From an uncultured Bacteroidales bacterium (GTDB lineage Bacteria; Bacteroidota; Bacteroidia; Bacteroidales; Paludibacteraceae): a DNA stretch of 58,725 nt. Made by a program: the position numbers and the translations under genes. The DNA is taken from NCBI GenBank assembly GCA_944321745.1, contig CALUML010000003.1, forward strand, positions 1 through 58,725, in the 5' to 3' direction. Below, one piece after another: positions 81-55,355 of this stretch (position 1 is the first letter of the stretch; each line of letters starts with the position of its first letter). Below the pieces are notes generated by a model that was not told the origin of the DNA, did no database searches, and saw only the letters and a program-made list of their open reading frames with translations.

Positions 81-168
81 CATACGTGCGCGGCGGAATT
101 TCCGCACGTATGAAAATAAAATTCCGTCCGTGCGGAAATGAAATTTCGCACGGACGGAATTTTATTGC
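81..168. repeat. Palindrome array, 22-nt period (family CCGTCCGTGCG)
   Basis: Four 22-nt units start at 81, 103, 125 and 147 and alternate in orientation, giving two adjacent hairpins. One pairs TTTCATACGTGCG (78-90) with 103-115. The other has perfect 20-bp arms (115-134 and 147-166). The array lies just past the stop of the sensor gene and could end its transcript. The same family recurs at 38105-38192. Confidence 0.75.
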
Positions 169-192
169 AGCAAGCATCCGCTTTCCGGCATC

Positions 193-3100
193 TCATCCCC
201 CTTTTCTTTCGCGCTTGTAATAGCAGTTGTTCAGGTAGTCCGTAGGGCGGATGCCCAGTTCCTTCTTGAATGCCTTGGAAAAATAGTTCGGGTCGGCAAA
301 TCCCACCTTGTAGGCCGTTTCGGACACGTTGAACCCCTCGCGAAGCAGCTCGCACGCTTTCTTCATCCGCTTTTTGCGGATGAAGTCGCCCATGGAGGTA
401 TTCAGCAGGCTCTTCATCTTGACGTGCAGCAGGCTGCGGCTCACGGCCAGCGTCTGGGTGATGTCGGCTATGCTGAACGCATCGTTGCCTATGTTTTCTT
501 CTACCAGCTTGTTGATTTTCTCGATAAACTCCCGGTCAAACTTGCTCAGCGAGGCGGTCTCCACGTCCGAGCCCAAGGCCTGCCCTATCCGCTCGCGCTG
601 CACCAGCTTCATGTGGATGATGTTTTTCACCTGGAGTTCCAATATTTCCGGGTCGAAAGGCTTGGGCACATAGGCCTCCGCGCCGCTCTCGTAGCCCTTC
701 ATCACATCCTCGGTGTCGCCCTTGGCCGTAAGCAGGATGACGGGGATGTGCGACGTGGAGGGGTCTTCCTTCAACGTCCGGCACAAGGTGTTGCCGTCCA
801 TTTTGGGCATCATGACATCGGATATGACAAGGTCCAGCGGATACTTGCGGGCGATGTCCAACGCTTCGGCCCCGTTGTTCGCCACGTAGGTGTGGTAGCT
901 TTTGCCAAACAGGCCCGACAAGAAGCCCAGTAGTTCCTCGTTGTCCTCCACCAGCAAGATGGAGGATTGCGATGCCGCCGGAGACGAGCCTCCCATGTGT
1001 GCGGCCTGCGCGGCTCGTTCGGGATAAGGGACGGTGAATTTGTATTGGCTCAACGGGACAACCGTCTTGTCGGAACTGATTTTATCCTGCGCGTCGAAGG
1101 CCTCCTCGGACACGTTCAGCAACACGGTGAAGCATGAACCCTTGCCCGGCTCGCTTTCCACGGACACACTGCCCTTGTGTATGGAGGCGCACTTCTTGAC
1201 GAGAGCCAGCCCGACGCCCCAGCCCTTGTTGTTGGCGTTGTGCCCCCGCTTGGTCTGGTAATATTTTTCAAATATGTTGCCAAGCTCTTCCTTGACTATG
1301 CCTATGCCGGTGTCCCTCACCTCGATGCGGAGGTAGTTGTAGCCGTCGGAGCAGTCGGTGATGGCGGCATCGACGAACACCTGTCCGCCCGCAGGCGTAA
1401 ACTTGATGGCGTTGGAAATGAGGTTACTGGTTATACGCTCCACATAAGAGGGCGAGAACCACACTTCCTCACCGTTATTCTCGCAATGGACGTAGAACGC
1501 CAGGGACTTTTCCCGGGCATTTTCCCGGAATAGCGAACACAGGCTCTCGATGAAGTCGAGCGGGTTGCCTTTTTCCAGGTAGAACTGGAAATTGCCCGAC
1601 TCCAGTTTGTTGAACGTGACCAGCTCGTCTATCAGCCCCACCATCTTGTGCGTGTTCTTGACGGCCAGGTCCAACCGCTCCCGCGACTCGGGCGACAAGG
1701 ACTCGTGCTGCGCGATGTATTTCAGCGGAGCCATGATGAGCGACAAGGGTGTCTTCAACTCGTGCGACACGGTGGTGAAAAAGTCCATCTTCACCTTGTT
1801 CACCTCCTCCAGGCTCTCCTTTTCCAGGTTGGCCATCCGCACGGCGTTTTTCTCCCGAAGGCGGATGGCAAACAACTTCAAACCGAGCCAAAGTATCACC
1901 ATCGCCACCACGGCATAGATGGCGAATGCCCATCCGGACAAGAAGAAAGGCGGATGCACCACAAACGTCAACTGCTTGACGGGTGCCTGCTCCCAGCCGT
2001 CATTGGAGTTGTTGGCCCGTATGCACAGGGTGTATGTGCCGGGGCGCAGGTTCGACCCCACGAACTTGCGCTCCTTGCCCACGCTTTTCCAGTCCTCATC
2101 TACTCCCACGAGCTTCACCTGGTAGTTGATGGCACTGGTATTGGCCAAAGAAATGGCCGCATACTCGATGCTGAACGAGCGTGACTGCTTGTAAGTGAAA
2201 TCTATGACGGACATGTCGTCCAGGGCGGCAGTCAGGGGCGAGTCCGAAGTGTTCGAATCGACGATGTGGTTGTCGATGTTCAGATGAAGCAGGTGTACCT
2301 GGTAGGGTTTCCATCCCTCCTTAAGGGTCTTAGGAGTGAAAGAAATAAGCCCGTTGACACTGCCGAAATAAAGCAGGCCGTCCGAAGCCTGTATGGAGGA
2401 GGCGAAGTTAAACTGGTTGACCGGCAGCCCATCCTGCACCGTGTAATACACAAAGGCACTGCGTTCCTTGTTGAACTGATAAAGTCCCCGGCTGGTGCTG
2501 ACCCACAGGCGGCCGAACTCATCCTCGATGATGCTGCATATGGTGGCCTGGAACAAGGCAAGCCCGTTCCCCGGCACGCGGACTTCCAGTTCCTCCGGGT
2601 CGATGTACTGCAGCCCCCCGTTGTTGGTCCCTATCCAGATGCGCCCGTCCGCATCCTGATACAGGCAGGTGATGTAATTGTCCTTCAAGGCCGATCCGCC
2701 CGCCGTGGCAGTCCAGTTGTTTATCTCGTCCGTCCGGTTGTCTATGCGGAACAGGCCATAATTGCGGGTGCCCACCCACAGGTTGTCGTCCCGGTCCACC
2801 AACATGCAGAACACGAAGTCCACGTCCAGCTGCGGATGGCCGGTGGCCAGGAACGTGTCCCGCTCCTGGGCGTAACGCCGCAACCCCAGCGTGGTTCCAA
2901 TCCACAGGGTGCTGTCTTGTTTTCTTTTGATGGAGAATATGGCATCGGACGGCAGCCCGCTGCTATCGGGCATGTAATGCACATATTCATCGGCCGCGAG
3001 GTTGTATCGGAACAGCCCGTTGCGGAATGTCCCGATCCACATGTCCTGTGTGCCACCGTCATAGTACAACTCGTGTATGTTGTGCCCCAATTGCGGTATC

Positions 3101-4245: not shown

Positions 4246-4283
4246 AAGTAAACAGCTTGTTTCGTTTTTTTTTACAAAATGGT

Positions 4284-4323
4284 TCACATGGGGATGCCCC
4301 GTGCAGGGACTGCCCCATGTGAA
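4284..4323 (-). repeat. Hairpin in the HTCS leader
   Basis: Arms TTCACATGGGG (4284-4294) and CCCCATGTGAA (4313-4323) are perfectly complementary over 11 bp. It lies 39 nt upstream of the chosen HTCS start. It could be a leader structure or a terminator for transcripts coming from the GH43-like gene. Confidence 0.55.
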
Positions 4324-4327
4324 CATT

Positions 4328-4503
4328 ATCCCAAATCGGTCATTAGACCATTCAGGGAATATCTTTGCCCGCTTTCCGTCTTGTGGCGGCGTTTTTTGCT
4401 GCCTTTTCTCTCGACATAGCCCGCTATGCCTTCGAGAAAAGCCATCAAAAACCACTCGCCACAAGAACAGAAATCAGACAAAGCCTAATGACCGATTTGG
4501 GAT
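4328..4503. mobile_element. Foldback (MITE-like) element, 176 bp
   Basis: Perfect 19-bp inverted ends (4328-4346 and 4485-4503, reading ATCCCAAATCGGTCATTAG inwards) enclose a second imperfect palindrome (TTGTGGCG...CGCCACAA, 4381-4464) with CATAGC/GCTATG near its tip. No coding capacity. A Bacteroides-type -7 box TATCTTTG (4360-4367) on the plus strand lies inside. It separates the HTCS from the GH43-like gene. Confidence 0.6.
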
Positions 4504-4530
4504 TATCATTTCCTTGTTTTCCGTAGAAGT

Positions 4531-7179
4531 TTATTGGTTGTCAACCGGCTTTTCACCCACATGGTAATACAGCACGCCCCGGTAATCCGAGGAGTAATTG
4601 CTGCCGCCGAGTGCTACCCGCGAGGCTTGGAACGGCAGCTCCAGCGAGCCCACTTCCCGCCCGTCGATGAACAGGTAGAGTTTTTCCCCGTCGCGCACCG
4701 TGCGCAGGTTGTACGACTCCTTCAGCATTTCATGCACCCGCAGTTTGTAGATATGCCTGCCCTGGTCGGTCGGCACGCGGTTGATGAAACGCACGCCGTC
4801 GGCCTTGACCGGCGCAAACGTCAGCTTGTTGTACATGGGGTTGTCGGCCACCGTCACCTGGCTGTTGTCCACAGGATGCCACTTGCCATCCGCCAGGTAC
4901 TGCACGGTGAATTTGTCGAACATATTCGCCGTGAAGTCCGACTTGTCGTCCGCATCGTGCCGGCTGAGATACAGTTCGTCTATCACGGTCGGGGTGGCGA
5001 ACCGATAGTTTTTCTCGAACGAATCGGTATATTTCACATCGGGATAGGCCGTGCGCACCTGTCCCAGCGGGTAGCTTTCCAGCCGTTTCACCTTCCCTTT
5101 GCTCACGAGCGTCACTTCCAGCAAGGCGGTCGTGCCGTTGAACGCCGCCTTTACGTAATTGTCCTCGTCCACATATACCGGGTAAGAGGCATGAACCTTG
5201 CCCTCGCCCAGTCCATAAGCCTGGTAGGCCAGTTCGTACCGGTCCAGCGGTTCGCCAACCACCTTCTTCTCGTTAGCCGACAGCCGGATGCTGCCCTCAT
5301 CGAAGCCGATGGTGTAAATCGTGCCCTCGAAGCGGGCATTGCCGGTGGCATCGAACGTGCCGGGACAACCTGCCGTAACCGGGATGACGTTGGCAAACAC
5401 ATGCTGCCCCGGAGCGGGCATTTCATCCAACCACACTTTCAGCTGTCCGCCGTTGCGCTCGATGCGGAAGTGGTGATACACGCCCCACTTGAAATCGTCC
5501 GGCAAAGCAAACTGTTTTTCCGTCGTCTTTCCATCTTCCGTCACAGCCAGGTACCAGGCGTTATCCGCTGCCCGCAGCCCCACCCGGGCCTGGTTCTCAT
5601 CATCTTGCCACCAGGCAATGGCTCCCGCTTCGCCCGAAGTGCTCACCGAAGTTTCCAGCATATAGGCCACTGCGGGCTGAGCCTGTGCCAGCACGCCCAC
5701 AGCCCCGGTTTCGTCCATGGCAGCCACAGTCGGCCAAGCCGGTACGGGGTGATATCCCGGGGTGTTCGGCCCGGTGATGCCGTCCACATACAAGGTCTTG
5801 TCGAAGAACTGCACCCGGTCCACATATTGGTCGCGCGACTCGTCGTTCTTGTTGGCCATGTAGATGAGCCACCACTCGAAGCCGTTCGGCCCGCGCAGGA
5901 TGTTGGGCTGGCCGGGAGTAAAGAGGATATCGTCCGCCACCTGGTCTTTCAGGTCGAACAACGACACGTTGAAATAGTTGGAACGTCCGCCAGCCGTCTC
6001 GATGGCCAGCAGGTTTTCCCCCGTTTTCAAGGCTTTGAGTTGTTTCGGCGTGAGGTTGACCATGCAGTAGTCCGAGCCTTTTTTGTCGTAAATCACCGTG
6101 CCGTTGAGCAGGATGCGGGTGTCGCCGTAGTGGGTTACGCGCAAAGCCAAGTTGCCATGGTTTTCAGGAACGGCGAACGCCTTGCGCAGCCACAGCGAAG
6201 GCGACTGCCACATCGTGGCACAGTACCGCACCGTGGAACCCGCTATCTTGCGGGAAGCGAAACCGCCTTCACCTTGTTTCCAGGCGGCATCATCAAAGCC
6301 CGCTTCCGTCCAGCCTTCGCCCGGCTGCACTTCCGTGTAGGCAAACAAAGGAGTATAGTCCGTACCCGTGTAGCGCAACAGGTCCACATACGTTTCCTCT
6401 ATCGGTGTCTGGTTGCTGCCCACCACCGGATGGCTGTACTTGTTGCCGTTGTTGAACTCCATGGGCGAATCGGCCTGCGCCACGCCCAGCTGGTAGTTGC
6501 CCCACGTGTGCCCCGTGTGGTTGGCGTTGTACATCATGTAATACTGGTCGCGGTACTTGATGACCCACGGCCCTTCGGCCACGCGGTTGTCCATCGTCTC
6601 CCACGTATTGGGCAGCGAGGCGAACAGGCAATACGGCTCGGTGAGGAACTCCGAAGGGTTCTTCATCTTGCGCACCCAGATGGTGTTGCCCTCGGTGAAG
6701 CGCACCATGTACAGGTAGAGCTGCCCGTCATCGTCCTTGAACACCTTGGGGTCGATGCGGTTGTCGAGCCAGGTCGTCTTGTCCGGCTCGGTGTACGGAC
6801 CCAGCACCTTGTCGCTTTGGGAATGGACGATGTGCACCGCATGCAGGTCGTCACCCCAATGGTTCACCGACCAGAACATGTGGAACTGTCCGTTGAGGTA
6901 GAACATGTCGTTCGCGTGTATCTGGTTGTTGCCCGCTTTGGAGCCCCGTGTCCAGTCGTTGTCCATGGTGACTACGTGCACCGACTCGCTCCAGCGGACG
7001 AGGTCGTCGGACACGTACACATCGCCATACGTGCCCACACCGCCAATGTAATACTTCCCGTTATACTTCATGACCCCCGCATCGGCCACATGGGGAATGA
7101 CCGGGTTGGGGACGTTTTGCGCAAATGCCACGGCACCCACCGCGCAAGCGCAGACCAGTGAGAACAATTTGTTTTTCAT
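4531..7179 (-). CDS. Secreted GH43-like glycoside hydrolase with inserted galactose-binding-like domain
   Basis: Predicted exo- or endo-acting enzyme of the five-bladed propeller GH43 type (arabinan/xylan/galactan side chains in known members), 882 residues. Signal peptide cleaved after about residue 20 (AVAFA-QN). The three expected acids are visible: Asp33 (VADAGVMKYNGKYY), Asp143 (RIDPKVFKDDDG) and Glu202 (AEGPWVIKYRDQYYMMYN). After blade four, a jelly-roll galactose-binding-like domain (about 285-425) interrupts the propeller, which then resumes with GQPNILRGPNGFEWWLIY. A LamG-like region (about 490-640) and a discoidin-like region (about 700-800) follow. No T9SS sorting domain is obvious. 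It is downstream of the SGNH gene in the same direction. Exact substrate is not readable from the sequence. Confidence 0.8.
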   Translation of the reverse strand: MKNKLFSLVCACAVGAVAFAQNVPNPVIPHVADAGVMKYNGKYYIGGVGTYGDVYVSDDLVRWSESVHVVTMDNDWTRGSKAGNNQIHANDMFYLNGQFHMFWSVNHWGDDLHAVHIVHSQSDKVLGPYTEPDKTTWLDNRIDPKVFKDDDGQLYLYMVRFTEGNTIWVRKMKNPSEFLTEPYCLFASLPNTWETMDNRVAEGPWVIKYRDQYYMMYNANHTGHTWGNYQLGVAQADSPMEFNNGNKYSHPVVGSNQTPIEETYVDLLRYTGTDYTPLFAYTEVQPGEGWTEAGFDDAAWKQGEGGFASRKIAGSTVRYCATMWQSPSLWLRKAFAVPENHGNLALRVTHYGDTRILLNGTVIYDKKGSDYCMVNLTPKQLKALKTGENLLAIETAGGRSNYFNVSLFDLKDQVADDILFTPGQPNILRGPNGFEWWLIYMANKNDESRDQYVDRVQFFDKTLYVDGITGPNTPGYHPVPAWPTVAAMDETGAVGVLAQAQPAVAYMLETSVSTSGEAGAIAWWQDDENQARVGLRAADNAWYLAVTEDGKTTEKQFALPDDFKWGVYHHFRIERNGGQLKVWLDEMPAPGQHVFANVIPVTAGCPGTFDATGNARFEGTIYTIGFDEGSIRLSANEKKVVGEPLDRYELAYQAYGLGEGKVHASYPVYVDEDNYVKAAFNGTTALLEVTLVSKGKVKRLESYPLGQVRTAYPDVKYTDSFEKNYRFATPTVIDELYLSRHDADDKSDFTANMFDKFTVQYLADGKWHPVDNSQVTVADNPMYNKLTFAPVKADGVRFINRVPTDQGRHIYKLRVHEMLKESYNLRTVRDGEKLYLFIDGREVGSLELPFQASRVALGGSNYSSDYRGVLYYHVGEKPVDNQ

Positions 7180-7228: not shown

Positions 7229-7270
7229 AAACCACAGAGACACCTGGATAAACGAGTGCCTCTGTGGTTT
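7229..7270 (-). terminator. Terminator hairpin after the SGNH gene
   Basis: On the minus strand, AAACCACAGAG pairs with CTCTGTGGTTT (11 bp, 7229-7239 and 7260-7270), followed by a T-rich run. It begins about 10 nt past the stop of the SGNH gene and fits an intrinsic terminator or attenuator before the GH43-like gene. Confidence 0.55.
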
Positions 7271-7279
7271 ACCTTTTAC

Positions 7280-10200
7280 TTACTGCTCGCCACCCACGGC
7301 TTTCCGGGTCGCGATGTTGCCGTTTTCATCGACCATCCTCAGCACATATATGCCGGAAGGCAGGTTGTTCAAGCCGTCTTTTTCCCAATTGTCTCCTTGC
7401 AGAGTCATCAGCTTTTCACCGGTCACTTTGTACACGGTTACTTCTTTCAAGCGGGCATTCGCCTGCACGCCATCCAGTCCGGTAGAAACCCGGTTTTCTT
7501 CCAAAACCAGCTTGTTCAGGCTCTGCGCCTTGTTTTCCACGATGCCTTCCCCACTGGCCGTGCCGTCGAGCGGAGCATATATTTCCAGACTCGACTTCAG
7601 CATACGTCCTTCATGCAAGGCGGCTATTTCCTCGGCACACATGCCTGCCCGGTAGAAATACAGTTCGCGGAAATCCGCCGCCGTCAACGGATTGTCTGCC
7701 GCATTCAGGCTGAACGTGGTGGAATAAAGTCTTTCCTTTACCTCACCTTGGAGCACACCGTCCACGTACAGGAGCGTGGCTTGGCGGGCAAAGTAATGGG
7801 TCAGGCTCACGGTGTGCCATTCGCCATCGTTCAGCGTGCCCGATGCCGTCACCACCTGGTCATCCTGCGTGGCATCATAAGTAAGCGTGCCATCGGCAGC
7901 CAGCATCACCTTGCCTACCAACGAGCCGTTGCGCGCGGCAAAGCGCAACAACGTGCCCGCCGATTCGGTGCGGAACGAGAACGTAACCGTGAACGGATGC
8001 AATGTGCCTTCCGGTTGCCACGTCACCAACTGCGCCTGTCCGTCCTGCACGCCAAGCGACAGGGAAGTACCCTCCTGACGCACCGGCTGCGGCTTGCCGA
8101 CAACCAAGGCATCGAGCAGCGAAGGCACAAACGCATAGAACATCTCGGCATGGCCCGCCGTGTTGGGATGGGCATTATCTGCCTGATAGCCGGTCGCCCA
8201 TTGCCCGGCACCGTTGTCGATAGCCCCCAGCAGGTTGACACTCGGCACGTCCCACTCGTGGATAAGCAAATTCAATTGCTTCACGAAGTTATAATCACTT
8301 TCGTTGAAGTCGGCACGGGCGTAGTTGTTGCCCATCAACGGCACTTTGCCGAACAAACGAGTGCGCTCGATGATGGTCTGCATGTTATCGCGATAGCTGT
8401 CGAAAGCTGTCTGCCCGTTTTCATGCACCCCTTCGTTGCCCAGCGACAAGCCGTAGTACACGTAACGGCTGCACGTGGGCAGCAGGTCGCTGTCCCAGCG
8501 GTTCATTACGTCCGTGGTGTTGTTGCCCGGCACGGAAATATTGTCCGTGCTCCAAGCATGTTCAGCCTCTGTAGCCAGGTAGTTGGCCCACAACTGCGCA
8601 TAGCCTTTGCCCGTATCAGCCCCTTGCCCATAAGGCACGGACGAACCCATGACCGTAAGCGTGTAGTCATCGGGCGTTTGGTTGGACAGCGTGATTTCTT
8701 TCGAATCGGTCAACTGGCTTCCACTTGCAAACGTGGCGGTAGCGGTCACCGTCACGGTGCCGTTGCCCAGCGGGTACAGCAGGCCATTCTCCGTGATTTG
8801 TGCCAATTCGTCATCACTCACCGCCCAGGTCACAGCCGGACAGAAAGCCCCCTCGGGCGTGGCCGTCGCACTCAGCTGCAAGGTCTGCCCGCACACGTCT
8901 ATCGCATCGCCGCCCGTGATGGCCAGTGCCGTAGCCTGTTCGGTCACATCCAGTTCTTCCACCTTCATGGCATTGACGTGGAAGAAATTACCCAGCCATT
9001 CCGTGAGTTTCAGCGTAATCGTTCCCTCCGTGTCGGGCACCAACAAGTCGGACACGAAGATGTTCGCCACATTGCGGTGCACGCCCGTACCGGCCATGTC
9101 CTTGCCGCCCATCTGGTGGATACCGGTGACGGAGTTCGACCCGATGAGTTGCACGATGCCGATGCGGTTTCCTGTCTTTTCCTCCCTGCTGCCGAAGATG
9201 TGGAAGCGGTACATCTTTTCCTTGTCCAGGTTCTTGAACAGTATGGAGGCCGTTGTGCCGTCGCCGCTGCGGAAGATGTAGTCTTGTGTGGCGGTGGCAA
9301 TGGCCAGGTCGCCCAGCAGGGCCGGGTCGGGATTGGTGAGGCCGCCGTTGCGCACCCCGTTGAACTCGAACTTGTCTGCCAGTTCCACTTCATAAGGAGT
9401 TTCGGTGTTGTCCGAGTACACGATGTCGATTTTCAGTCCCGCCTGCTCGGTGGTAGGCCCGTCGCCATTGCTGTACATATTGTTCCAATAATGACCGTTC
9501 GCATCGGGGCTGGCGGTAGGCGTGCCGTCCGTTCCGTTGTTATTCTTGCCGAAGTCGATGTAGAATTGCCTGTCGGCCACGGGCAGGGTATAGCCCTCGT
9601 ATTCCTCTATCTTCATGGCGTTGATATAGGCATAGCCGCCGGTGAGGATGCCCAATTCGAAAAGTATCTCGCCGTTGTCCTTCGGCATCACGTAGCCCGA
9701 CTCCCAAATGTCATCATCGTTCGTGTTGCCGATATCCGTACCAATGCCCGCGCCGGTGGTCTGGTGCGTGCCGTGGCTGCCGTTGCGCCCGGTAATGGAG
9801 AAGATGGACGTGCGCACGTCATTACCAGAACGGCTGCCGAACACATAGAACTTATAGGCCCGCTGCGGGTTCAGCCCCTTCAGCACGAAAGCCCCCTTGT
9901 CGGCCACGCCGTTGTCTATGAAGAAATAATCTTCCGTGGCAGTCGCAACGGCCAGGTCGCCCAACAGGTCGGGGTTGGGGGCAAGCAAAGCCCCGTTTTT
10001 CTTACCATTGGCCATGAAGTCCTCCACGGTTTCCAGGGTGATGCCCGTGGCCTGGTTGTCCGCGTTGACCAAATCCACCGTGTAACCCGCCGGTTTGCGC
10101 GAAGGCGCACCGCTTTCATCGCTCACGATGTTGTTCCAATAATGACCGTTCGCATCGGCTTCGGCGGTGATGTTGCCGTTCGTCCCGTCGCTCTTCCCGA

Positions 10201-11389
10201 AGTCGAGATAGAGGGTTTGGGTCAATGCCTGCCCCTCGGCGGGCCGGTCGGTATTCCTATACAATTTCGTTGCGTTCCAGCCGCACTTGAATATCTCGGC
10301 ATAGCCGTCGCCGTCGAAGTCGGCCACTTCCAGCGTGCCGTCGGCCCAGCCGGGTATCACATCGTTCACGCCCGCCACCGGGGTGAAAGCCGTGTTCGTG
10401 CCATCATTCTTATACACGGCAAACGAACCTGCTCCGTTCCAACCGGAGATGAAGAAGTCGGTGTAGCCGTCGTGGTCGCAGTCGCCCGTGCGGATGGGGC
10501 CAACCTGCACGCCCGGCAAGCCCAGGTCAACCTTGGTAAAAGCATTCGTGCCGTTGCCTTTCCACACGTCGGTGAAGAACGCGCCTTCCTTCAACCCTCC
10601 CAAGAGGATGTCCAGGTTACCGTCCCGGTCGTAGTCCACCCAATAGGCAAACGATTGGCCGTAGCCCGTCAGCGCGATGTCGGTCTGCTCGGTGAAACCG
10701 CCCTTTCCATCGCCCTTATAGACGTGTGCCTGCTGCCACCCGTTCAGCAATATGTCCAGGTTGCCGTCGTTGTCGTAATCGCCGAAGCGGGCTTCCCCGT
10801 CGGACATGAGGAACAAGGTCGTGTTGTTGATGTCGGTAAACGCGTTGTTGCCCTCGTTGTGCCAGATGGTCACTTTCGCGCCAAGTCCATCCTTATGACC
10901 CACTTGCAGGACATCCATCTTCCCGTCGTTGTCATAATCGCCGAACTCGATCACGCCGTTCGAGCGGCCGTCAAGCGTGGCTGCCTGGGTGAACACGCCT
11001 TGCCCGTTGTTCTGGTACACATAGGCCTGTTGCACGTTCTTCCCGTCCACGGGCGACCAGCCTTGTATGGCGAGGTCCAAGTCGCCGTCGCCGTCATAGT
11101 CGCCCACCGCGATGGAGCTGTGGATAAAGCCCTTGTCCAACCCCGTATTCTCGGCCAGGGTAAAGCCGCCTTGGCCGTCGTTCAGGTACAGCCACGTCTT
11201 GTCCACACCGGCGGCTTTCCCGGTCAGCACGATGTCGAGGTACCCATCGCCGTTGAAGTCGCCGCAGGCGGAGGCACAGTCGTTTTCCACATTCTGCTCA
11301 AAGCAGGCAGGTGTCATGTCTTGATAAATCTGTGCATTCATTCCGAATGCCCCGGCCAATGCCAGGCCTAACAGTACGTTCTTTTTCAT
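7280..11389 (-). CDS. Giant multidomain SGNH/GDSL esterase with FG-GAP repeats and T9SS sorting domain
   Basis: 1369-residue exported protein. Order: signal peptide (to about 20); FG-GAP/VCBS propeller repeats (about 25-345, many DxDGDGxxD motifs); two tandem copies of a roughly 200-residue domain that begins YLDFGK/YIDFGK and carries DANGHYWNN; a BIG2-type Ig domain (about 790-880); an SGNH hydrolase domain with the nucleophile Ser in MGSSVPYGQG (about 913), SLGNEG, MGNN and the Asp/His block DNAHPNTAGH (about 1073); a LamG-like domain; and a C-terminal type A T9SS sorting domain (VTVYKVTGEKL ... LPSGIYVLRMV). The SGNH core suggests removal of acyl esters (for example acetyl) from a glycan. 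The other domains look like carbohydrate-binding or scaffold parts. Confidence 0.82.
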   Translation of the reverse strand: MKKNVLLGLALAGAFGMNAQIYQDMTPACFEQNVENDCASACGDFNGDGYLDIVLTGKAAGVDKTWLYLNDGQGGFTLAENTGLDKGFIHSSIAVGDYDGDGDLDLAIQGWSPVDGKNVQQAYVYQNNGQGVFTQAATLDGRSNGVIEFGDYDNDGKMDVLQVGHKDGLGAKVTIWHNEGNNAFTDINNTTLFLMSDGEARFGDYDNDGNLDILLNGWQQAHVYKGDGKGGFTEQTDIALTGYGQSFAYWVDYDRDGNLDILLGGLKEGAFFTDVWKGNGTNAFTKVDLGLPGVQVGPIRTGDCDHDGYTDFFISGWNGAGSFAVYKNDGTNTAFTPVAGVNDVIPGWADGTLEVADFDGDGYAEIFKCGWNATKLYRNTDRPAEGQALTQTLYLDFGKSDGTNGNITAEADANGHYWNNIVSDESGAPSRKPAGYTVDLVNADNQATGITLETVEDFMANGKKNGALLAPNPDLLGDLAVATATEDYFFIDNGVADKGAFVLKGLNPQRAYKFYVFGSRSGNDVRTSIFSITGRNGSHGTHQTTGAGIGTDIGNTNDDDIWESGYVMPKDNGEILFELGILTGGYAYINAMKIEEYEGYTLPVADRQFYIDFGKNNNGTDGTPTASPDANGHYWNNMYSNGDGPTTEQAGLKIDIVYSDNTETPYEVELADKFEFNGVRNGGLTNPDPALLGDLAIATATQDYIFRSGDGTTASILFKNLDKEKMYRFHIFGSREEKTGNRIGIVQLIGSNSVTGIHQMGGKDMAGTGVHRNVANIFVSDLLVPDTEGTITLKLTEWLGNFFHVNAMKVEELDVTEQATALAITGGDAIDVCGQTLQLSATATPEGAFCPAVTWAVSDDELAQITENGLLYPLGNGTVTVTATATFASGSQLTDSKEITLSNQTPDDYTLTVMGSSVPYGQGADTGKGYAQLWANYLATEAEHAWSTDNISVPGNNTTDVMNRWDSDLLPTCSRYVYYGLSLGNEGVHENGQTAFDSYRDNMQTIIERTRLFGKVPLMGNNYARADFNESDYNFVKQLNLLIHEWDVPSVNLLGAIDNGAGQWATGYQADNAHPNTAGHAEMFYAFVPSLLDALVVGKPQPVRQEGTSLSLGVQDGQAQLVTWQPEGTLHPFTVTFSFRTESAGTLLRFAARNGSLVGKVMLAADGTLTYDATQDDQVVTASGTLNDGEWHTVSLTHYFARQATLLYVDGVLQGEVKERLYSTTFSLNAADNPLTAADFRELYFYRAGMCAEEIAALHEGRMLKSSLEIYAPLDGTASGEGIVENKAQSLNKLVLEENRVSTGLDGVQANARLKEVTVYKVTGEKLMTLQGDNWEKDGLNNLPSGIYVLRMVDENGNIATRKAVGGEQ

Positions 11390-11461: not shown

Positions 11462-11573
11462 CGCATAAAGTAGTCGTTCCACAGCTGTGAGACAATCGTC
11501 TCACGGCTGTGGAACGATCGTCTCACAGCCGTGATTCAATCGTTCCACGGCTGTGGAACGACTACCTTATGCG
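11462..11573. repeat. Palindrome array, 22-nt period (family CACRGCYGTG)
   Basis: Four cores CACAGCTGTG, CACGGCTGTG, CACAGCCGTG and CACGGCTGTG start at 11480, 11502, 11524 and 11546, exactly 22 nt apart, each flanked by CGTTC/GAACG or CGTCT/AGACG arms. The whole block is itself palindromic: CGCATAA at 11462 pairs with TTATGCG at 11567. It fills the gap between two PUL genes. Confidence 0.85.
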
Positions 11574-33635: not shown

Positions 33636-33707
33636 GGCGGTTTTTGTGCCGCAGATGGCGCGGATAAGCGCGGATGGGTTCTTACCTCTCACTCCTTACC
33701 TCTTGCC

Positions 33708-33752
33708 GTAGGGCGTTGCCCTACGCTGAATGCCACAAGGCCGTTGGCCTTG
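33708..33752. repeat. 45-bp double-hairpin element, copy 3
   Basis: Both stems perfect, same orientation as copy 2. It is preceded by pyrimidine-rich CTTACCTCTCACTCC sequence. Confidence 0.92.
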
Positions 33753-33844
33753 GACGGTAAAGGGCGGAAGATTTTTCGTCTTTGCATACAGGTTCGCCCT
33801 TGCACTTTCAATTTTCAATTCTCCACTCTCCATTAAAAAACCCC

Positions 33845-34050
33845 TACTAGTTTCCCGGTCATCGTCCTATAGTTTCCCGACCAACATCCTATAGTTTCTT
33901 TGTTAACATTTGCCTGTTTTTGGAGGCAATATTCTATTATTCAATGTCGGATGTCCTATTGCAGCCCCGAAAACAAACTATAGTATCCGAATCATCGTCC
34001 TATAGTTTCCCGGGCAACGTCCTATAGTTTCCTGCTTCGTTTTCTATAGC
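33845..34050. repeat. Palindrome array, 22-nt period (family CCTATAGTTTCCCGG)
   Basis: CTATAG or a decayed form of it recurs at about 33845, 33867, 33889, 33934, 33956, 33978, 34000, 34022 and 34044. The phase of 22 nt is kept within 1 nt even across the decayed middle units. The best units read TCCTATAGTTTCCCGG. No coding content. Confidence 0.8.
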
Positions 34051-35790: not shown

Positions 35791-35801
35791 AAGGATTTCT
35801 A

Positions 35802-35860
35802 ATTTCAGATTTCAGATTTCAGATTTCAGATTTCAAATTTCAAATTTCAGATTTCAGATT
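35802..35860. repeat. Heptamer repeat ATTTCAG/ATTTCAA before sulfatase start
   Basis: About eight 7-nt units begin 12 nt upstream of the start codon (35790) of the minus-strand sulfatase. The rest of the gap to 36106 holds CGCAGATT-like remnants, a double-hairpin element and a pyrimidine-rich tract (36020-36095). Confidence 0.85.
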
Positions 35861-36106: not shown

Positions 36107-37783
36107 CTATCGTGGTGCGGGCACGACCAAGCAGCGTTCTGCCCAGGCGTTATATTGCCTTTCCATCTCCGCCACCTTGTCGGGGTGGGCGGCGGCCAAG
36201 TCGTGCAGCTCGGTGCGGTCGGTGTTCAGGTCGTAGAGTTCCCATTCCCGGTTTTCGCCGGCCTGCTTCACGATTTTCCACCCGTCCCGGCCGATAAGGG
36301 CTTTTTCGCCGAAATGCTCGAAGCCGATGTATTCATGTCCCTGGCGCGTGCCGGTGCGGAAGACGGGTGCCAGGCTTTTCCCCTCCAGGGGCGTGATGGC
36401 GTGCCCGTTGTATTCAGCCGGATACGTGGCACCGGCCAGGTCGATGCAGGTGGCCATGATGTCCATCACGTGCCCCGGCTCGGCGGTGATGCTGCCTGCG
36501 GGCTGCTCGATGCCCTGCGGCCAATGGGCGATGAGCGGGGTGCAGATGCCACCCTCGTATTCGCGCGCCTTCCAGTAGCGGAAGGGGGTGTTGGCCACAT
36601 TGGCCCACTCCGCCCCGAGCGAGGCGAAGGTCGTCTCCGGTCCGGGCAGGGCTTCCTTGTTTTTGGGATAGATGATTTCCCGCCCGTCGCGCGTGCGGTC
36701 GGGGCGGTCGTTCTCGCCCGGGGCAAAGTTCTGGCACACCTCAGGGCTGCACCCGTTGTCCGAAAGGAAAAGGATAAGCGTGTTGTCGTATTGCCCGTTT
36801 GCCTTCAGCGCCTCAACCAATTGACCGATGCCCCGGTCCATGCGGTGCACCATGGCGGCGTGTACGGCCATGGCACGGGCATCCCACTCACGGTCGGGGT
36901 TGTCCTCCCAACGCCGGTCGAACGGCCTGGGCGACAGCGCATGTCCCGCATCGGCCAAGATGCCCAGCTGCTCCATGCGCCCGTAGCGTTGTGCGCGTAT
37001 GCTGTCCCAACCCACGCGGTACGTGTCCTCGTACAGCGCAATGTCCTCGGGCAAGGCGTGCAACGGCCAGTGCGGCGCGGTGTAGGACAAATAGAGGAAG
37101 AATGGGCGGTCGCCCTGCGCATAACGATTGACATAGGCCACCGCCGAATCGCTGAAGGCGGTGGTGATGTAGTAATCGTCCGGCACGTCGCGCACCGGTT
37201 CCTCGCCGCTCACCAGGCTGAAAGGGTCGAAGTAGTCTGCCACCCCGTAAATGATGCCGTAATAGTCATCGAACCCCCGATGGGTGGGATAGCACGCCTT
37301 GTCGGCAAAAGCCGGATGATGCACCTGGTGATTCAGCCAGTCGCGCTGGTCGGGTTGCAACGGGGTCTCCGCCACGTGCCACTTGCCCACCATGCCCGTG
37401 CGATAGCCGCTCCCGCGCAGCACTTCGGCGATAGTGACGGCGTTGTCGGACAGTTGCCCGCGGTAGCCCGGCAGGTGCGCGTCGAACGTCATGCGCCCGA
37501 TGCCCGCCTGATGCTGGTACAGCCCGGTAAGCAAGGAAGCCCGCGTGGGGCAGCTGCGGCTACAGTTGTAAAAGCGGCTGAAACGCATCCCTTCCTCGGC
37601 CAGACGGTCCAGGTTGGGCGTGTGTATCTCGCCGCCGTAGCAGCCAAGGTCGGAATAGCCGAGGTCGTCGGCCAGGATGACGATGATGTTCGGACGCTCG
37701 TCCCGCCCCTCTTGGCAGGCGGTCAGCAGGCCGGTCGCCGCCAAAGCCAGCGAACCGGATTTCAGGAAAGAGGTTGTCTTCAT
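36107..37783 (-). CDS. Ser-type sulfatase, lipoprotein
   Basis: 558 residues. Lipobox LTAC (Cys23), NIIVILADDLGYSDLGCYGG (metal Asp39-Asp40) and formylglycine motif S-C-P-T-R (Ser77-Arg81) in RSCPTRASLLTG. The residue at the modified position is Ser, with Cys next to it. Further motifs are GKWHVAETPL, FFLYLSYTAPHWPLHA and FLSDNGCSPE. Its length and the GIGRMTFD region are like arylsulfatase-A-type family S1 members. It lies 317 nt upstream of the other sulfatase and in the same direction. The start codon abuts a heptamer repeat tract with no spacer. Confidence 0.9.
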   Translation of the reverse strand: MKTTSFLKSGSLALAATGLLTACQEGRDERPNIIVILADDLGYSDLGCYGGEIHTPNLDRLAEEGMRFSRFYNCSRSCPTRASLLTGLYQHQAGIGRMTFDAHLPGYRGQLSDNAVTIAEVLRGSGYRTGMVGKWHVAETPLQPDQRDWLNHQVHHPAFADKACYPTHRGFDDYYGIIYGVADYFDPFSLVSGEEPVRDVPDDYYITTAFSDSAVAYVNRYAQGDRPFFLYLSYTAPHWPLHALPEDIALYEDTYRVGWDSIRAQRYGRMEQLGILADAGHALSPRPFDRRWEDNPDREWDARAMAVHAAMVHRMDRGIGQLVEALKANGQYDNTLILFLSDNGCSPEVCQNFAPGENDRPDRTRDGREIIYPKNKEALPGPETTFASLGAEWANVANTPFRYWKAREYEGGICTPLIAHWPQGIEQPAGSITAEPGHVMDIMATCIDLAGATYPAEYNGHAITPLEGKSLAPVFRTGTRQGHEYIGFEHFGEKALIGRDGWKIVKQAGENREWELYDLNTDRTELHDLAAAHPDKVAEMERQYNAWAERCLVVPAPR

Positions 37784-37868
37784 TCAGATTTCAAATTTCA
37801 AATTTCAGATTGCAGATTTCAAATTTCAGATTGCAGATTGCAGATTTCAAATTTCAGATTTCAAATTA
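37784..37868. repeat. Heptamer repeat ATTTCAA/ATTTCAG abutting sulfatase start
   Basis: The tract starts at the base next to the ATG (37783) and runs about 85 nt, with some GATTGCA variants. The gene-free stretch 37784-38281 also holds G-rich palindromes (37939-37970), a double-hairpin element, a pyrimidine tract and a palindrome array. Confidence 0.85.
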
Positions 37869-37982
37869 TTGCCCGCAGATTGCGCGGATGGACGCAGATT
37901 TCCTTCTTCTTGCTTCTTGCCCAATTGACGCGGATGGGTACATCCCCTCCTTGGGAGGGGCTTGGGGAGGCTTCCTCTGTCC

Positions 37983-38027
37983 GTAGGGCGTTGCCCCACG
38001 CTGAACGCCACAAGGCCGTTGGCCTTG
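37983..38027. repeat. 45-bp double-hairpin element, copy 5
   Basis: Second stem perfect; first stem with one mismatch as in copy 4. Spacer GCTGAACGCCA. Confidence 0.9.
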
Positions 38028-38104
38028 GGCTTTCCCTTTCACCCTTTCTACTTTCGCCCTTTCTACTTTTCCCTTTCACCTTTCTCCTTTTTCCCTTTCA
38101 CCTT

Positions 38105-38192
38105 TGTGCTTGCGGAAATGATTTTTCGCACCGACGGAATTTTATTTTCGTGCGGACGGAATTTTATTTTCGCACGGACGGAAATCCCATCC
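38105..38192. repeat. Palindrome array, 22-nt period (family CCGTCCGTGCG), second locus
   Basis: Units start at 38127, 38149 and 38171, exactly 22 nt apart (CGCACCGACGG, CGTGCGGACGG, CGCACGGACGG, each followed by AATTTTATTTT or similar), with a decayed unit at 38105. Same family as 81-168. Confidence 0.82.
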
Positions 38193-43152: not shown

Positions 43153-43163
43153 GGCTGTTTAAT

Positions 43164-43259
43164 TAACAATTAACAATTAACAATTAACAATTAACAATGG
43201 ACAATGAACAATGAGCGGAAGTTGTGCGTTGCCCGCTGTTCATTGTTCATTGTTCATTG
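43164..43259. repeat. Heptamer repeats TAACAAT/GAACAAT facing GTTCATT
   Basis: Five TAACAAT units (43164-43198) and two variants run to 43212 directly upstream of the HAD gene start. Inverted GTTCATT units (43238-43259) lie opposite, so the segment can fold. The inverted part codes for the last residues of the next gene. Confidence 0.85.
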
Positions 43260-43692: not shown

Positions 43693-43696
43693 AACA

Positions 43697-43734
43697 ATTT
43701 CAGATTTCAAATTTCAAATTTCAAATTTCAGATT
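43697..43734. repeat. Heptamer repeat ATTTCAA before a start codon
   Basis: Five units (ATTTCAG, three ATTTCAA, ATTTCAG) begin 5 nt upstream of ATG 43692. Confidence 0.88.
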
Positions 43735-44855: not shown

Positions 44856-44889
44856 CACCCTTGTAGGCGGGAGCGGTATCCCGGATTCC

Positions 44890-44910
44890 CGTAACTCGTA
44901 ACTCGTAACT
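44890..44910. repeat. Heptamer repeat CGTAACT before symporter start
   Basis: Three perfect 7-nt units end 7 nt before ATG 44918, where a ribosome site would be. Confidence 0.85.
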
Positions 44911-44917
44911 AAAAAGC

Positions 44918-46384
44918 ATGTCCGCATATTCCATCTTGCTCATCATCGGGGTTTACTTCTCCGTCCTGCTGCTCATATCGCTTGTGGCGGGGCGGGGCGG
45001 CACGGACAACGAGGCTTTCTTCCTCGGCAACCGGCGGTCGCCCTGGTGGGTGGTGGCCATCGGCATGGTGGGGTCGTCGCTGTCGGGGGTGAGCTTCGTG
45101 TCGGTGCCGGGCATGGTGCGCGACATCGGCTTCACGTACATGCAGACGGTGGCGGGCTTTTTCTTCGGTTACCTGGTCATTGCCGGGGTGCTGCTGCCGC
45201 TGTATTACCGCCGGGGCTTCACGTCCATCTACACGTATCTGGAGGAACGGTTCGGGCGGCGGTCGTACAAGACGGGGGCGGCGTGCTTCCTCGTGGGCAA
45301 GACCATCGGGGCGGCGGCACGGCTGTACGTGGTGGCCCTGATGTTGCAGACGCTCGTGTTCGACAGCCTGGGAGTGCCCTTCGTGGCGAACGTGTGCGGC
45401 ATCATCGGGCTGATATGGCTCTACACGTTCCGCAGCGGCATCAAGGCGATTGTGTGGACGGACACCTTGCAGACCGTCGTCATGCTGGCCGCGCTGGTGC
45501 TGCTCATGGTGGAGGCGGCGCGGCGCATCGACCTGGGCGCGGGCGAACTGGCCTCGACCTTGGCGCACAGCGACATGACCCGCCTCTTCGTGCTGGACGA
45601 CTGGCACAGCAAGCAGAACTTCTTCAAGCAGTTCTTCAGCGGCATCTTCATTGCCATCGTGATGACGGGGCTGGACCAGGACATGATGCAGAAGAACCTG
45701 ACCTGCCGCAGCCTGCCCGAGGCGCAGAAGAACATGCGTTGGTATGGCGCGTCGTTCATGCCGGTCAACTTCCTGTTCCTCACGCTGGGGGCCATGCTGC
45801 TGGTGCTGGCCGGGCAGGAAGGCATCGCGCTTCCCGCGCAGTCGGACGAGATACTGCCCTTGTTCGCCTCCCGATACTTGGGCAAGACGGCCTTGGTGCT
45901 CTTCGTCGTGGGCATCGTGGCGGCGGCCTTTTCGAGTGCCGACTCGGCCTTGGCGGCGTTGACCACCTCGCTGGCGGTGGACATACTGGGCATCGGGCGG
46001 CAACAGCCCCGGCAGGCCAAACGCACGCGGATAGCCGTCCACGTGGGCATCTCGGCGGCGTTCGTGGGGATTATCCTGCTGTTCCGGGCGGTGAACAACA
46101 CGAGCGTGATCGATGCCATTTATACCTTGGTGAGCTACACCTACGGGCCGTTGCTGGGCCTGTTCGCCTTCGGGCTGTTCACCAAGCGGCCTACGTGCGA
46201 CCGGGCGGTGCCCTTCATCGCCGTGGCAGCCCCGGTGCTGTGCGGCCTGCTGGACTGGGCCAGCCGCCACTGGTGGGGATATGCCTTCGGCTACGAGCTG
46301 CTCATGCTTAACGGCCTGCTGACGTTCGCGGGGCTGTGGGCGGCGAAGAGAATTGAAAATGGAAAGATGAAAATGGAAAGTTGA
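44918..46384 (+). CDS. Sodium:solute symporter family protein
   Basis: 488 residues and about 13 membrane helices with the SSS-family pattern: FFLGNRRSPWWVVAIGMVGSSLSGVSFVSVPG in the first helices, GKTIGAAARLYVV, FRSGIKAIVWTDTLQ, GLDQDMMQKNL and AAFSSADSALAALTTSLAVDI (helix 8 Ser residues that usually bind sodium). It imports an unidentified solute with sodium at the inner membrane. The final residues ENGKMKMES come from a GAAAATGGAAAG repeat rather than conserved protein. It converges on rodA. Confidence 0.92.
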   Translation: MSAYSILLIIGVYFSVLLLISLVAGRGGTDNEAFFLGNRRSPWWVVAIGMVGSSLSGVSFVSVPGMVRDIGFTYMQTVAGFFFGYLVIAGVLLPLYYRRGFTSIYTYLEERFGRRSYKTGAACFLVGKTIGAAARLYVVALMLQTLVFDSLGVPFVANVCGIIGLIWLYTFRSGIKAIVWTDTLQTVVMLAALVLLMVEAARRIDLGAGELASTLAHSDMTRLFVLDDWHSKQNFFKQFFSGIFIAIVMTGLDQDMMQKNLTCRSLPEAQKNMRWYGASFMPVNFLFLTLGAMLLVLAGQEGIALPAQSDEILPLFASRYLGKTALVLFVVGIVAAAFSSADSALAALTTSLAVDILGIGRQQPRQAKRTRIAVHVGISAAFVGIILLFRAVNNTSVIDAIYTLVSYTYGPLLGLFAFGLFTKRPTCDRAVPFIAVAAPVLCGLLDWASRHWWGYAFGYELLMLNGLLTFAGLWAAKRIENGKMKMES

Positions 46385-46469
46385 AAACGACAGCTTTGCT
46401 ACCTGCATAGCAACGCGTTACGTGTATCCAGCATGATGCCTTGTCCCTCTCTATGAAGTCCCCTTAGGC

Positions 46470-46620
46470 CTCACTATAGTGAGACCACGCACTTCACTAT
46501 AGTGGGATGCCTTGCCTCACTATAGTGAGATGTCTTGCCTCACTATAGTGAGATGCTTACCCTCACTATAGCGAGATGCTTACCCTCACTATAGTGAGAT
46601 GCCTTGCCTCTCCATAGCAA
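46470..46620. repeat. Palindrome array, 23-nt period (CTCACTATAGTGAG)
   Basis: The 14-bp perfect palindrome starts at 46470, 46516, 46539 and 46585, with one-to-three-base variants at 46493 and 46562 and a decayed unit at 46608. Spacing is exactly 23 nt throughout, with a 9-nt linker of ATGCCTTGC type. The array lies between the convergent symporter and rodA genes (gap 46385-46763), which otherwise holds only a short AT palindrome (TTCTATAGAA) and a GGAAAATGG remnant. Confidence 0.93.
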
Positions 46621-46763
46621 GGGGCAGGGCATCACGCGGGAGACCCGTAACCTATTATTCTATAGAATAAAAACCTGACTCAGGGGAAGGCAACACGGCG
46701 TGTTGGGAGGGCATGGGCCGCCGTTTCAACTTTCCATTTTCCATTCTCCATTATCAACCGTCC

Positions 46764-50064: not shown

Positions 50065-50070
50065 GGGCGG

Positions 50071-50571: not shown

Positions 50572-50702
50572 GAACAGGGTGAGAAGTAAGGAGTGAGAGG
50601 TAAGAGGCAAGAGGTAAGGGAACACCATCCTCCGCATCTATTCCTTTATCGCATTTCTCTCTTTATCCTATTTATAATAACATATAATATACCGATGGAA
50701 TT

Positions 50703-50730
50703 GTAGAGACAAGGCATGCCTTGTCTCTAC
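50703..50730. repeat. 28-bp perfect palindrome
   Basis: GTAGAGACAAGGCA and its exact complement, without a loop. It lies between the mreC stop and the mreD start. A shorter relative (GTAGAGACGCGGCGTGTCTA) is at 51728-51747. Confidence 0.85.
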
Positions 50731-50816
50731 CCACGTCACGTCTATATGGATGTTCCTATCCGTGATTATCCGTACAATCCGTACAATCCGTGTTCTTTCC
50801 TATTTTGGCACACCTC

Positions 50817-51656: not shown

Positions 51657-51770
51657 AAACCTCCGACCCCAAAACACCCCCAACCCCCTAAAGGGGGCTT
51701 TCGGAAAATACCATTAAAAGCATACTTGTAGAGACGCGGCGTGTCTATCCCCCCCTTCAGGGGCAGGGGG

Positions 51771-52793: not shown

Positions 52794-52794
52794 A

Positions 52795-52986
52795 CAATAA
52801 CAATGAACAGTTAACAATGAACAATTAACAATGAACGGTCAACAATGAACAATGAACGGTCAACAATGAACAATGAACACCTAACAATGGACAATGAGCA
52901 GCAGACCACGGGAAACGGCTTCCCCGCCATCCATTGTTCATTGTTAATTGTTAATTGTTCATTATTCATTGTTCATTATTCATTGT
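52795..52986. repeat. Heptamer repeats filling the purH-mreB gap
   Basis: TAACAAT/GAACAAT units (52795-52898) lead away from the mreB start. Inverted ATTGTTA/ATTGTTC units (52930-52986) reach to within 3 nt of the purH stop. The two halves can pair into a long stem. Confidence 0.85.
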
Positions 52987-52988
52987 TT

Positions 52989-54509: not shown

Positions 54510-54536
54510 TGGTTTCCCTGTTGTTTTTTAGATGTG

Positions 54537-54566
54537 CAAATGTAGGAAAAACAATTTGTTTTCCAA
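54537..54566 (-). promoter_or_regulatory. purH promoter
   Basis: Minus strand TTG (54564-54566), 19 nt, TACATTTG (54537-54544), 28 nt before the purH start. Confidence 0.75.
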
Positions 54567-54593
54567 TGGCGTTCAAGTATTTTAAAAATAAAC

Positions 54594-54623
54594 TTGTCCG
54601 CATGGAAAGATTTCCTATCTTTG
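54594..54623 (+). promoter_or_regulatory. Promoter of the small membrane-protein genes
   Basis: TTG (54594-54596), 19 nt, TATCTTTG (54616-54623). Spacing equals that of the purH promoter on the other strand. Confidence 0.75.
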
Positions 54624-54657
54624 CGTGTCGGGAGGCGGAGGCCAAAAAGGAAGAACC

Positions 54658-54840
54658 ATGGGAGAAAAAGCAAATGAAAAAATCAGCGAATGGCTGTTGG
54701 ACATATCCAAGTACATCACTACCGCAGTGGTCGTGGCATCTTTCTTTGATGCAATAAACAATGTGGCCGTAGTATTCTCTGTCGGCATGCTTGCCGCAGT
54801 GGCTGCCCTGATCGGCAGCATATTACTAACAAGGAAGTAA
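54658..54840 (+). CDS. Small two-helix membrane protein (DUF6722-like)
   Basis: 60 residues: a short amphipathic start (MGEKANEKISEWLLDISKYI) then two hydrophobic helices (about 20-38 and 40-57) and LLTRK. It resembles the short DUF6722-type proteins seen in Bacteroidales; function unknown. ATG 54658 follows AAAAAGGAAGAACC and lies 35 nt past a good promoter. It is followed by a second tiny gene. Confidence 0.75.
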   Translation: MGEKANEKISEWLLDISKYITTAVVVASFFDAINNVAVVFSVGMLAAVAALIGSILLTRK

Positions 54841-54850
54841 AGAAGGAGGT
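54841..54850 (+). promoter_or_regulatory. Full Shine-Dalgarno sequence AGAAGGAGGT
   Basis: Directly after the stop of the preceding gene and 5 nt before the next ATG. Such a complete match to the 16S tail is rare in Bacteroidota and decides the start of the 34-residue gene. Confidence 0.75.
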
Positions 54851-54855
54851 CGATT

Positions 54856-54960
54856 ATGTTTTTCAATTTGTTACCGTTTTTTGTAGTCATTGCCGTATCG
54901 GTTATCTCTGTGATTTACTTCAAGATACAGGACAAAAAAGAAGAGAAGAAACAGAGCTGA
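54856..54960 (+). CDS. 34-residue single-helix membrane peptide
   Basis: ATG 54856 to TGA 54960. The product begins MFFNLLPFFVVIAVSVISV, one hydrophobic helix, and ends in a highly charged cytoplasmic-type tail (KIQDKKEEKKQS). It is in operon with the 60-residue membrane protein (15-nt gap) and has a perfect Shine-Dalgarno sequence. The hydrophobic-then-charged layout and the ribosome site make a real gene likely, though no homologue can be named. It may be a small subunit or a partner of the preceding protein. Confidence 0.65.
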   Translation: MFFNLLPFFVVIAVSVISVIYFKIQDKKEEKKQS

Positions 54961-55124
54961 TCCTTTGGAGGGGAGCCCTCCGCTCCTTCCCGACAGCCCA
55001 CCCAGACCCCGTACCACACCCGCATATTCCCTGCGCTTCGCCCGCCCGGGTCGAAGCCGTTTTCCACCCCAATCCACATCCTTAACGCGCTTTCCCTTTT
55101 TTAAGGAAAGGTCCGTATCCCTTT

Positions 55125-55355
55125 AGGCAAAAGGGTTGTACCCCTTTTAGGCAAAAGGGTTGTACCCCTTTTAGGCAAAAGGGTTGTACCCCTTTTAGGC
55201 AAAAGGGTTGTACCCTTTTTAGGCAAAAGGGTCATACCCCTTTAGGCAAAAGGGTCGTACCCCTTTGGGCAAAAGGGTCGCACCCCTTTGGGCAAAAGGG
55301 TCGTACCCCTTTAGGCAAAAGGGTCGTACCCCCTTGGGCAAAAGGGTCGCGGTCT
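55125..55355. repeat. Palindrome array, 23-24-nt period (AGGCAAAAGGGTTGTACC)
   Basis: Ten units start at 55125, 55149, 55173, 55197, 55221, 55244, 55267, 55290, 55313 and 55336: four steps of 24 nt, then five of 23. Each has AAAAGGGT facing ACCCCTTT across GTA. The remaining gene-free sequence between 54961 and 55614 is G-rich palindromic repeat (CCCCCTTTAGGGGG, 55371-55384) and unassigned DNA. Confidence 0.93.

Follow-up and report, generated by a model that had tools for sequence, protein, structure and literature searches.

The window analysed here is the whole of contig C3 (CALUML010000003.1), 58,725 nt of DNA from an uncultured Bacteroidales bacterium of the family Paludibacteraceae, whose draft genome (G000, the own genome) comprises 2.66 Mb in 207 contigs and is 89% complete. 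An initial annotation had described six intergenic arrays of short palindromes in this window, and tandem lags of 22, 22, 22, 22, 23 and 23/24 nt were found at the six places (81-168, 11462-11573, 33845-34050, 38105-38192, 46470-46620 and 55125-55355), each above the maximum of 200 dinucleotide shuffles. The second array follows a strict design, here called a quad, in which four palindromes at 21-22 nt lie inside inverted arms. Its parts are as follows, with no strand assigned:

11463-11572, family B quad: two arms and, between them, four palindromes spaced 22 nt apart; the G003 locus has the same layout
11463-11479, left inverted arm GCATAAAGTAGTCGTTC, pairing with 11556-11572 with one mismatch
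11480-11489, palindrome 1 of the quad, CACAGCTGTG
11502-11511, palindrome 2 of the quad, CACGGCTGTG, one mismatch
11524-11533, palindrome 3 of the quad, CACAGCCGTG, one mismatch
11546-11555, palindrome 4 of the quad, CACGGCTGTG, one mismatch
11556-11572, right inverted arm of the quad

G003 is the closest of three congeneric genomes used for comparison, the others being G002 and G001. The annotation had proposed a class of element defined by geometry, with binding of a dimeric protein or a repeat-expanding mechanism as candidate explanations. Such a class seems to exist; it is narrower than the six arrays, and in the window only 11462-11573 belongs to it. The claim that spacing is kept more strictly than sequence was right, more so than stated, for this quad and its relatives. 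The six arrays are not one class, and the other five are other repeat families that share the period. The regularity noticed earlier is real, with several families lumped together, and the quad among them is the interesting part.

Quads were sought with a sequence-blind detector, which scores symmetry around four equally spaced centres only and ignores the similarity of one unit to the next. It replaced a full-unit dyad score on consensus units from Tandem Repeats Finder (TRF), which was rejected after separating period 22 poorly from other periods (0.50 in the own sample vs 0.46 in shuffled sequence). The own genome was sampled by 458,725 nt at first and by 1,213,701 nt later. In the larger sample the detector returned 11, 26, 18 and 6 matches at 21, 22, 23 and 24 nt and 0-2 at every other spacing from 15 to 30; the matches at 23-24 nt are taken to be mostly 23-nt families, such as F and E of the last two arrays in the window. 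Shuffled own sequence, for which the control covered spacings 20-24 only, yielded no match at any of them. At a higher threshold, six matches at 22 nt and eight at 23 nt were obtained in the first own sample, together with six at 12 nt (about half of the longer period), and there were eight matches at 22 nt in congeneric loci and six at 22 nt in 80 Bacteroidales loci. One shuffle of each set gave no match at any spacing.

The quads of the own genome fall into three families, B (CAC-NNNN-GTG), D (CCCACAGTTGTGGG type) and Q6 (21 nt, AAAC...GTTT). Among runs of at least three units in the own sample, 26 of 29 had exactly four (B 7/10, D 11/11, Q6 8/8), and the B runs of other lengths were L250, with seven units of another repeat family, and L257 and L269, with three each. 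Runs of two numbered 30, 3 and 1 in B, D and Q6, vs 32, 1 and 0 in shuffled sequence. Exactly four units were also found in 47/49 B and 3/3 D runs of at least three in the congeners, where copies were retrieved by similarity to complete elements, a procedure that favours four units and that does not affect the own sample. These disjoint counts are preferred to earlier ones (63/68 for B and 18/20 for D), which were not independent because half-sites are alike and the groups overlap. The B core spanned 96 nt at 36 of 36 places without indels, under a pattern that tolerates 89-104 nt and from which an element with a lost or gained unit drops out. The arm repeats varied from 0 to 5 units, a rough count for which each family was represented by a single 8-9 nt motif and two mismatches at most were allowed. 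At one locus (L028 vs L200) the arms differ by 66 nt, or 3 x 22, which shows that arms can gain or lose units.

Under this fixed layout, the letters of the palindromes change together. The element at 11463-11572 and its G003 counterpart are of equal length with similar arms, and their centres differ at all four palindromes. All four centres also differ, with no length change, between L194 and L179 and between L195 and L177, a pair matched mainly by the flank with the PdxJ gene. The core class was unchanged in L192/L199 and L028/L200, which have matching flanks; overall it was switched in three of the five G000/G003 locus pairs checked. The units within a quad are strongly homogenised: they were more alike than randomly dealt units in G000, G003 and G002, with 0 of 2000 permutations reaching the observed value in each. 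Two main core classes, defined after the cores had been seen, were never mixed within any of 27 G000/G003 elements, four of which contain a single unit that fits neither class. Another core class, CACGAACGTG, was seen at G003:C92:23495-23590, where it is uniform within the element in the visible units.

Local symmetry was assessed in 51 B elements, taken from 65 rows after leaving out the D element L171 and 13 rows that scored below 22/24, of which one was L209, with three units, and several were D elements. Centre bases were locally paired in 277/408 cells, vs 256.2 +- 7.3 after half-swaps (G002, 123 vs 106.2 +- 5.9; G000, 62 vs 58.5 +- 2.3; G003, 92 vs 92.1). Pairing across the element reached 231/408, below the unit-permuted 249.7 +- 6.8. 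Local palindromes are thus kept and cross-element pairing is not, which argues against one long RNA hairpin and favours independent DNA dyads. With pairing of units 1-4 and 2-3 below the permuted value, a single long hairpin was rejected.

Gene context was derived from heuristic longest-ORF (open reading frame) calls. The 51 family B elements lie in 19 divergent, 2 convergent, 21 tandem and 9 edge gaps, and the divergent to convergent ratio departs from the background of gaps of at least 150 nt, taken from G000 only (69 divergent, 70 convergent, 219 tandem; Fisher p = 3.1e-4). For the gap that holds 11462-11573 these calls say convergent, and a conserved start codon suggests tandem neighbours. 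Q6 was found in 3 divergent, 0 convergent and 5 tandem gaps, and arrays of period 22-23 as a whole showed no divergent/convergent bias (27:32). The motif TAnnTTTG, which we take to be the -7-like promoter box, occurred between element and start codon in 27/51 regions and on the antisense strand in 9/51, so the element often lies upstream of a promoter-like box.

In the 80 Bacteroidales loci, beyond the own genome, the detector gave 11 matches at 22 nt, 2 at 21 nt and 0-1 elsewhere. Examples from Parabacteroides, Bacteroides oleiciplenus and others consist of four palindromes in a row, with symmetry that weakens one step further out and in some cases with inverted flanks, and their palindrome letters are unrelated to the own-genome families. 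The RodA/FtsW-type protein of the window shares at most 59% identity with the 80 relatives that were kept, from Paludibacter-like and other Bacteroidales/Bacteroidetes genomes. Four other genomes of the class (400 kb sampled, one match at 23 nt), three from other classes (320 kb) and E. coli K-12 (100 kb) gave no quad at 21-22 nt; these samples are small relative to the density in the 80-locus set, and the absence is therefore weak. In the congener G001, the one detector match in 109 kb is a long hairpin and not a clean quad. Of 101 genomes of the family, three, which belong to one genus (G000, G002 and G003), contained the family B pattern, and the other 98 did not. In G002, several B elements lie less than 300 nt from a contig start (C24, C42, C59, C64, C83, C89, C103 and C113), and perhaps strong palindromes caused these contig breaks. 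No four-palindrome element is described in the titles or abstract openings of the papers that searches of the open-licence literature listed.

The geometry and number of the units, their dispersal, the joint change of their centres and their local symmetry are read directly from the DNA. Palindrome letters that change together under a fixed layout suggest a docking platform for a DNA-binding protein. We lean, tentatively, toward reading the quads as dispersed, non-coding DNA elements that provide four protein dimers with a platform for wrapping. The quad core has four palindromes of about 10-18 bp with centres 21-22 bp apart, which would place all four on the same helix face, flanked by inverted arms that may carry 22-nt repeats. 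Four dimers, or one four-dimer protein, would occupy the palindromes, and the DNA bent or wrapped by the predicted protein would measure about 90-150 bp and lie between promoters or upstream of them, much as may happen with octameric Lrp-type regulators; transcription might be affected. The homologous arms and cores at many loci suggest that the elements spread by copying. Homogenisation of the units would make the palindrome letters change as a set, and spacing and number would stay fixed if the wrapped complex needs them.

By analogy with Lrp-type operators, a complex of four dimers would be expected to require four palindromes that are spaced by two turns and lie on the same face of the helix. 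The available parts of the reports on BarR, an Lrp-type regulator, describe a divergent intergenic region in which four to five predicted semi-palindromic sites recur regularly, at every second helix turn, with the DNA apparently wrapped around an octamer (PMC10201364, PMC2995911). The quads likewise present regular semi-palindromic sites two turns apart. The comparison is one of analogy and not of membership: the Lrp arrays described in those parts belong to single regulators and loci (PMC10201364, PMC2995911), whereas quads are dispersed homologous elements whose letters change.

Several results weigh against a wrapping platform. No binding protein was identified in this analysis. Lrp-type genes number 1-2 in G000-G003 and 2-6 in four genomes whose samples were free of quads at 21-22 nt; with such genes in all eight genomes tested and no correlation, Lrp gene count was rejected as a predictor of quads. 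Homology between loci extends over entire elements together with their arms, a sign of copying and not of binding-site selection by itself. It is mainly G002 that contributes the surplus of local pairing, and G003 shows none. The divergent bias is absent from family D, whose gaps are 1 divergent, 3 convergent, 6 tandem and 1 edge. Only 5 of 14 divergent gaps have a -7-like box on each side of the element, in 11 of 42 elements the box motif falls inside or at the arms, and all of the gene-context counts rest on heuristic calls. The genes beside family B elements showed no evident common pathway among the 20 of 61 neighbours scanned, and a regulon, for which these neighbours would share a function, is unsupported.

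The proposal can be widened to a Bacteroidales class of elements set by geometry and not by letters, in which four palindromes two helix turns apart within inverted arms form a reusable four-dimer wrapping platform; in this breadth we regard it as rather unlikely. Because the four palindromes change as a set, the specificities of element and protein could diversify while the architecture persists across genera. Extragenic repeats are normally classed by sequence, and an element conserved in number and spacing and free in sequence would escape sequence searches. The quad would offer a natural test of co-evolution between DNA-wrapping complexes and their sites, and the simple sequence-blind detector can now be applied to other genomes.

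Nearly as good as a wrapping platform, if itself doubtful, is an explanation in which the quads are passengers like miniature inverted-repeat transposable elements (MITEs) or bacterial interspersed mosaic elements (BIMEs), moved by a transposase or recombinase that recognises palindromes and arms, and with no host function. The many homologous dispersed copies with the same ends fit this explanation, as do the restriction of family B to one genus and a locus at which a three-unit B element is present in G003 and none in G000. As expected of MITEs, the quads are dispersed intergenic copies of one element. Inverted arms are also present. There is also a precedent in the same bacterial order, the BrickBuilt MITE of Porphyromonas gingivalis, which according to the accessible sections of its description is intergenic and dispersed, with 23-nt tandem repeats, predicted stem loops and 19 copies in one strain (PMC4596501). 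It differs, in the same sections, in having 1 to 22.8 repeats, IS5-like ends of 12 nt and a long leader and tail that reach 285 and 318 nt (PMC4596501), whereas a quad consists of four palindromes between inverted arms; families E and F are closer to the repeat part of BrickBuilt, as far as those sections describe it, in period and variable number.

Repetitive extragenic palindromic (REP) elements and BIMEs with their REP-associated tyrosine transposases (RAYTs) resemble quads as dispersed extragenic palindromes, in the portions of the literature consulted (PMC6006769, PMC3733652), although no fixed four-unit array is described in the portion of one paper covered here (PMC6006769), which does report atypical structures near Bacteroidetes subclass 2.6 genes. 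No Y1 transposase (PF01797) was detected in G000 or G003, which are drafts 87-89% complete (other transposase families were not searched), and no convincing quad lies beside the six Y1 loci of G001 and G002, where the best scores were 22/32 at 22 nt and 23/32 at 24 nt in AT-rich DNA. RAYT is therefore unsupported as a driver of quads. Mobility of any kind would be easier to accept with target-site duplications, and the one comparable pair (L209 vs L247), whose ends are not clean, showed no clean one; moreover, neutral insertion does not predict that family B should avoid convergent gaps. The BOX elements of Streptococcus pneumoniae are, in the part of their description at hand, modular intergenic repeats with fixed and repeated parts (PMC3049150), as quads are, and quads differ in their centre of four and variable arms.

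Improbable, though it accounts directly for the likeness of units within elements beyond all 2000 permutations in three genomes, is a purely mutational origin, with template switching perfecting the palindromes, slippage or gene conversion homogenising the units and 22 nt being the mark of the mechanism. The 66-nt difference in the arm repeats of L028/L200 would suit such a process, and at the same locus the centre is TT in one copy and AA in the other. An exchange of this kind resembles an inverted palindrome centre. A core of four in 26 of 29 own runs beside arms of 0-5 units is not predicted by such a process, nor is the same number in Parabacteroides and Bacteroides with unrelated letters.

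An action of the quads as RNA, in the form of terminators, attenuators or hairpin RNAs, is quite improbable. The symmetry is strong, the arms are able to pair and a transcribed unit could fold into a stem with a four-base loop; however, the would-be loop bases are themselves palindromic (the 277/408 paired cells), cross-element pairing is below the permuted value, many elements lie upstream of a -7-like box and family B is rare in convergent gaps. Intrinsic terminators were rejected on the latter ground, since enrichment at gene 3' ends or in convergent gaps was not seen (B, 2 convergent vs 19 divergent; D, no clear bias). An Rfam search at gathering thresholds in five sources with B and D elements gave no match over the arrays and only two transfer RNAs.

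That all six arrays form one class by virtue of 22-24 nt spacing alone is highly improbable: the period peak is common to them, but dyad content, copy-number behaviour and gene context differ by family, and the dyad test contradicts the idea for 33845-34050. The peak itself, on which the initial annotation had staked its proposal, is present. In the 1,213,701-nt sample, TRF reported 481 non-overlapping arrays, with 6, 62, 111, 24, 11 and 2 at periods 20, 21, 22, 23, 24 and 25; in the 458,725-nt sample there were 188 arrays, of which 48 had period 22, two had period 20 and two had period 24. When arrays of 20-24 nt (plus 44, 46 and 47) were clustered, 25 groups of at least two and 50 singletons resulted, so the period is common to many sequence families. 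Several groups at period 21 are 3 x 7 heptamer arrays, and one group of eight arrays is not. Heptamer arrays (periods 7, 14, part of 21, and 28) make up a separate large group, whose number in the larger sample is no lower than that of the 22-nt arrays (66 with period 7 and another 66 with period 14, vs 111 with period 22).

The six arrays were correctly assigned to five sequence families, with 81-168 and 38105-38192 forming one. Palindromes had been claimed for all six. At the period of the array itself, the dyad score was reached by 0/200 shuffles for 11462-11573, 38105-38192, 46470-46620 and 55125-55355, which bears the claim out; the dyads of 81-168 are weaker (5/200), and 33845-34050 has no palindromes at 22 nt above chance, a palindromic design being ruled out there by 88/200 shuffles that match the score. 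The phase said to hold across decayed units of 33845-34050 was not confirmed: the array has two pairs of units 111 nt apart (5 x 22 + 1), and the intervening stretch is partly conserved at the corresponding position in G003, which suggests that it is a segment of the element and not a series of decayed units. The remaining repeats of the window, again with no strand assigned, are these:

81-168, array 1: family A (CGGAATTT type), loose 22-nt repeats with weak dyads, counted outside the quad class
33845-34050, array 3: family C, two pairs of 22-nt units in a dispersed composite element, not palindromic
38105-38192, array 4: family A, roughly three dyad-bearing 22-nt units, partly conserved at the corresponding position in G003
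46470-46620, array 5: family E, about six 23-nt units with the palindrome TCACTATAGTGA
55125-55355, array 6: family F, about ten 23-24 nt units
35794-35860, 37783-37867, 43161-43212, 43696-43734 and 52794-52987: heptamer arrays of the GATTTCA, AATTAAC and ACAATTA types

Long ORFs on both strands overlap at 4531-7179, 7256-11389 and 44909-46408, which makes the strand calls there uncertain. The composite element around array 3 measures about 400 nt (33641-34049) and has many whole or partial dispersed copies in G003. A REP-like element (GTAGGGCGTTGCCCTACGC...GGCCGTTGGCC) occurs twice in the window, at 33707-33753 and 37982-38029, and a similar sequence lies in a Y1 transposase locus of G002 (L185, near 1971), where it is perhaps one of the atypical structures reported for Bacteroidetes subclass 2.6. 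Array 5 has long matches at two other places in the genome, and its gap (46410-46760) is at a break in gene order, the flanking genes being on different contigs in G003 and G001 and about 7 kb apart in G002. Array 6 belongs to a group of 12 arrays in the 1.21-Mb sample, with up to 10.4 copies by TRF. At its locus the family F array is not present in G003 or G002, which have family B quads with different cores instead; about 0.9-1 kb of the gap at 54510-55540 differs from both genomes and holds two small ORF-like stretches in addition to array 6.
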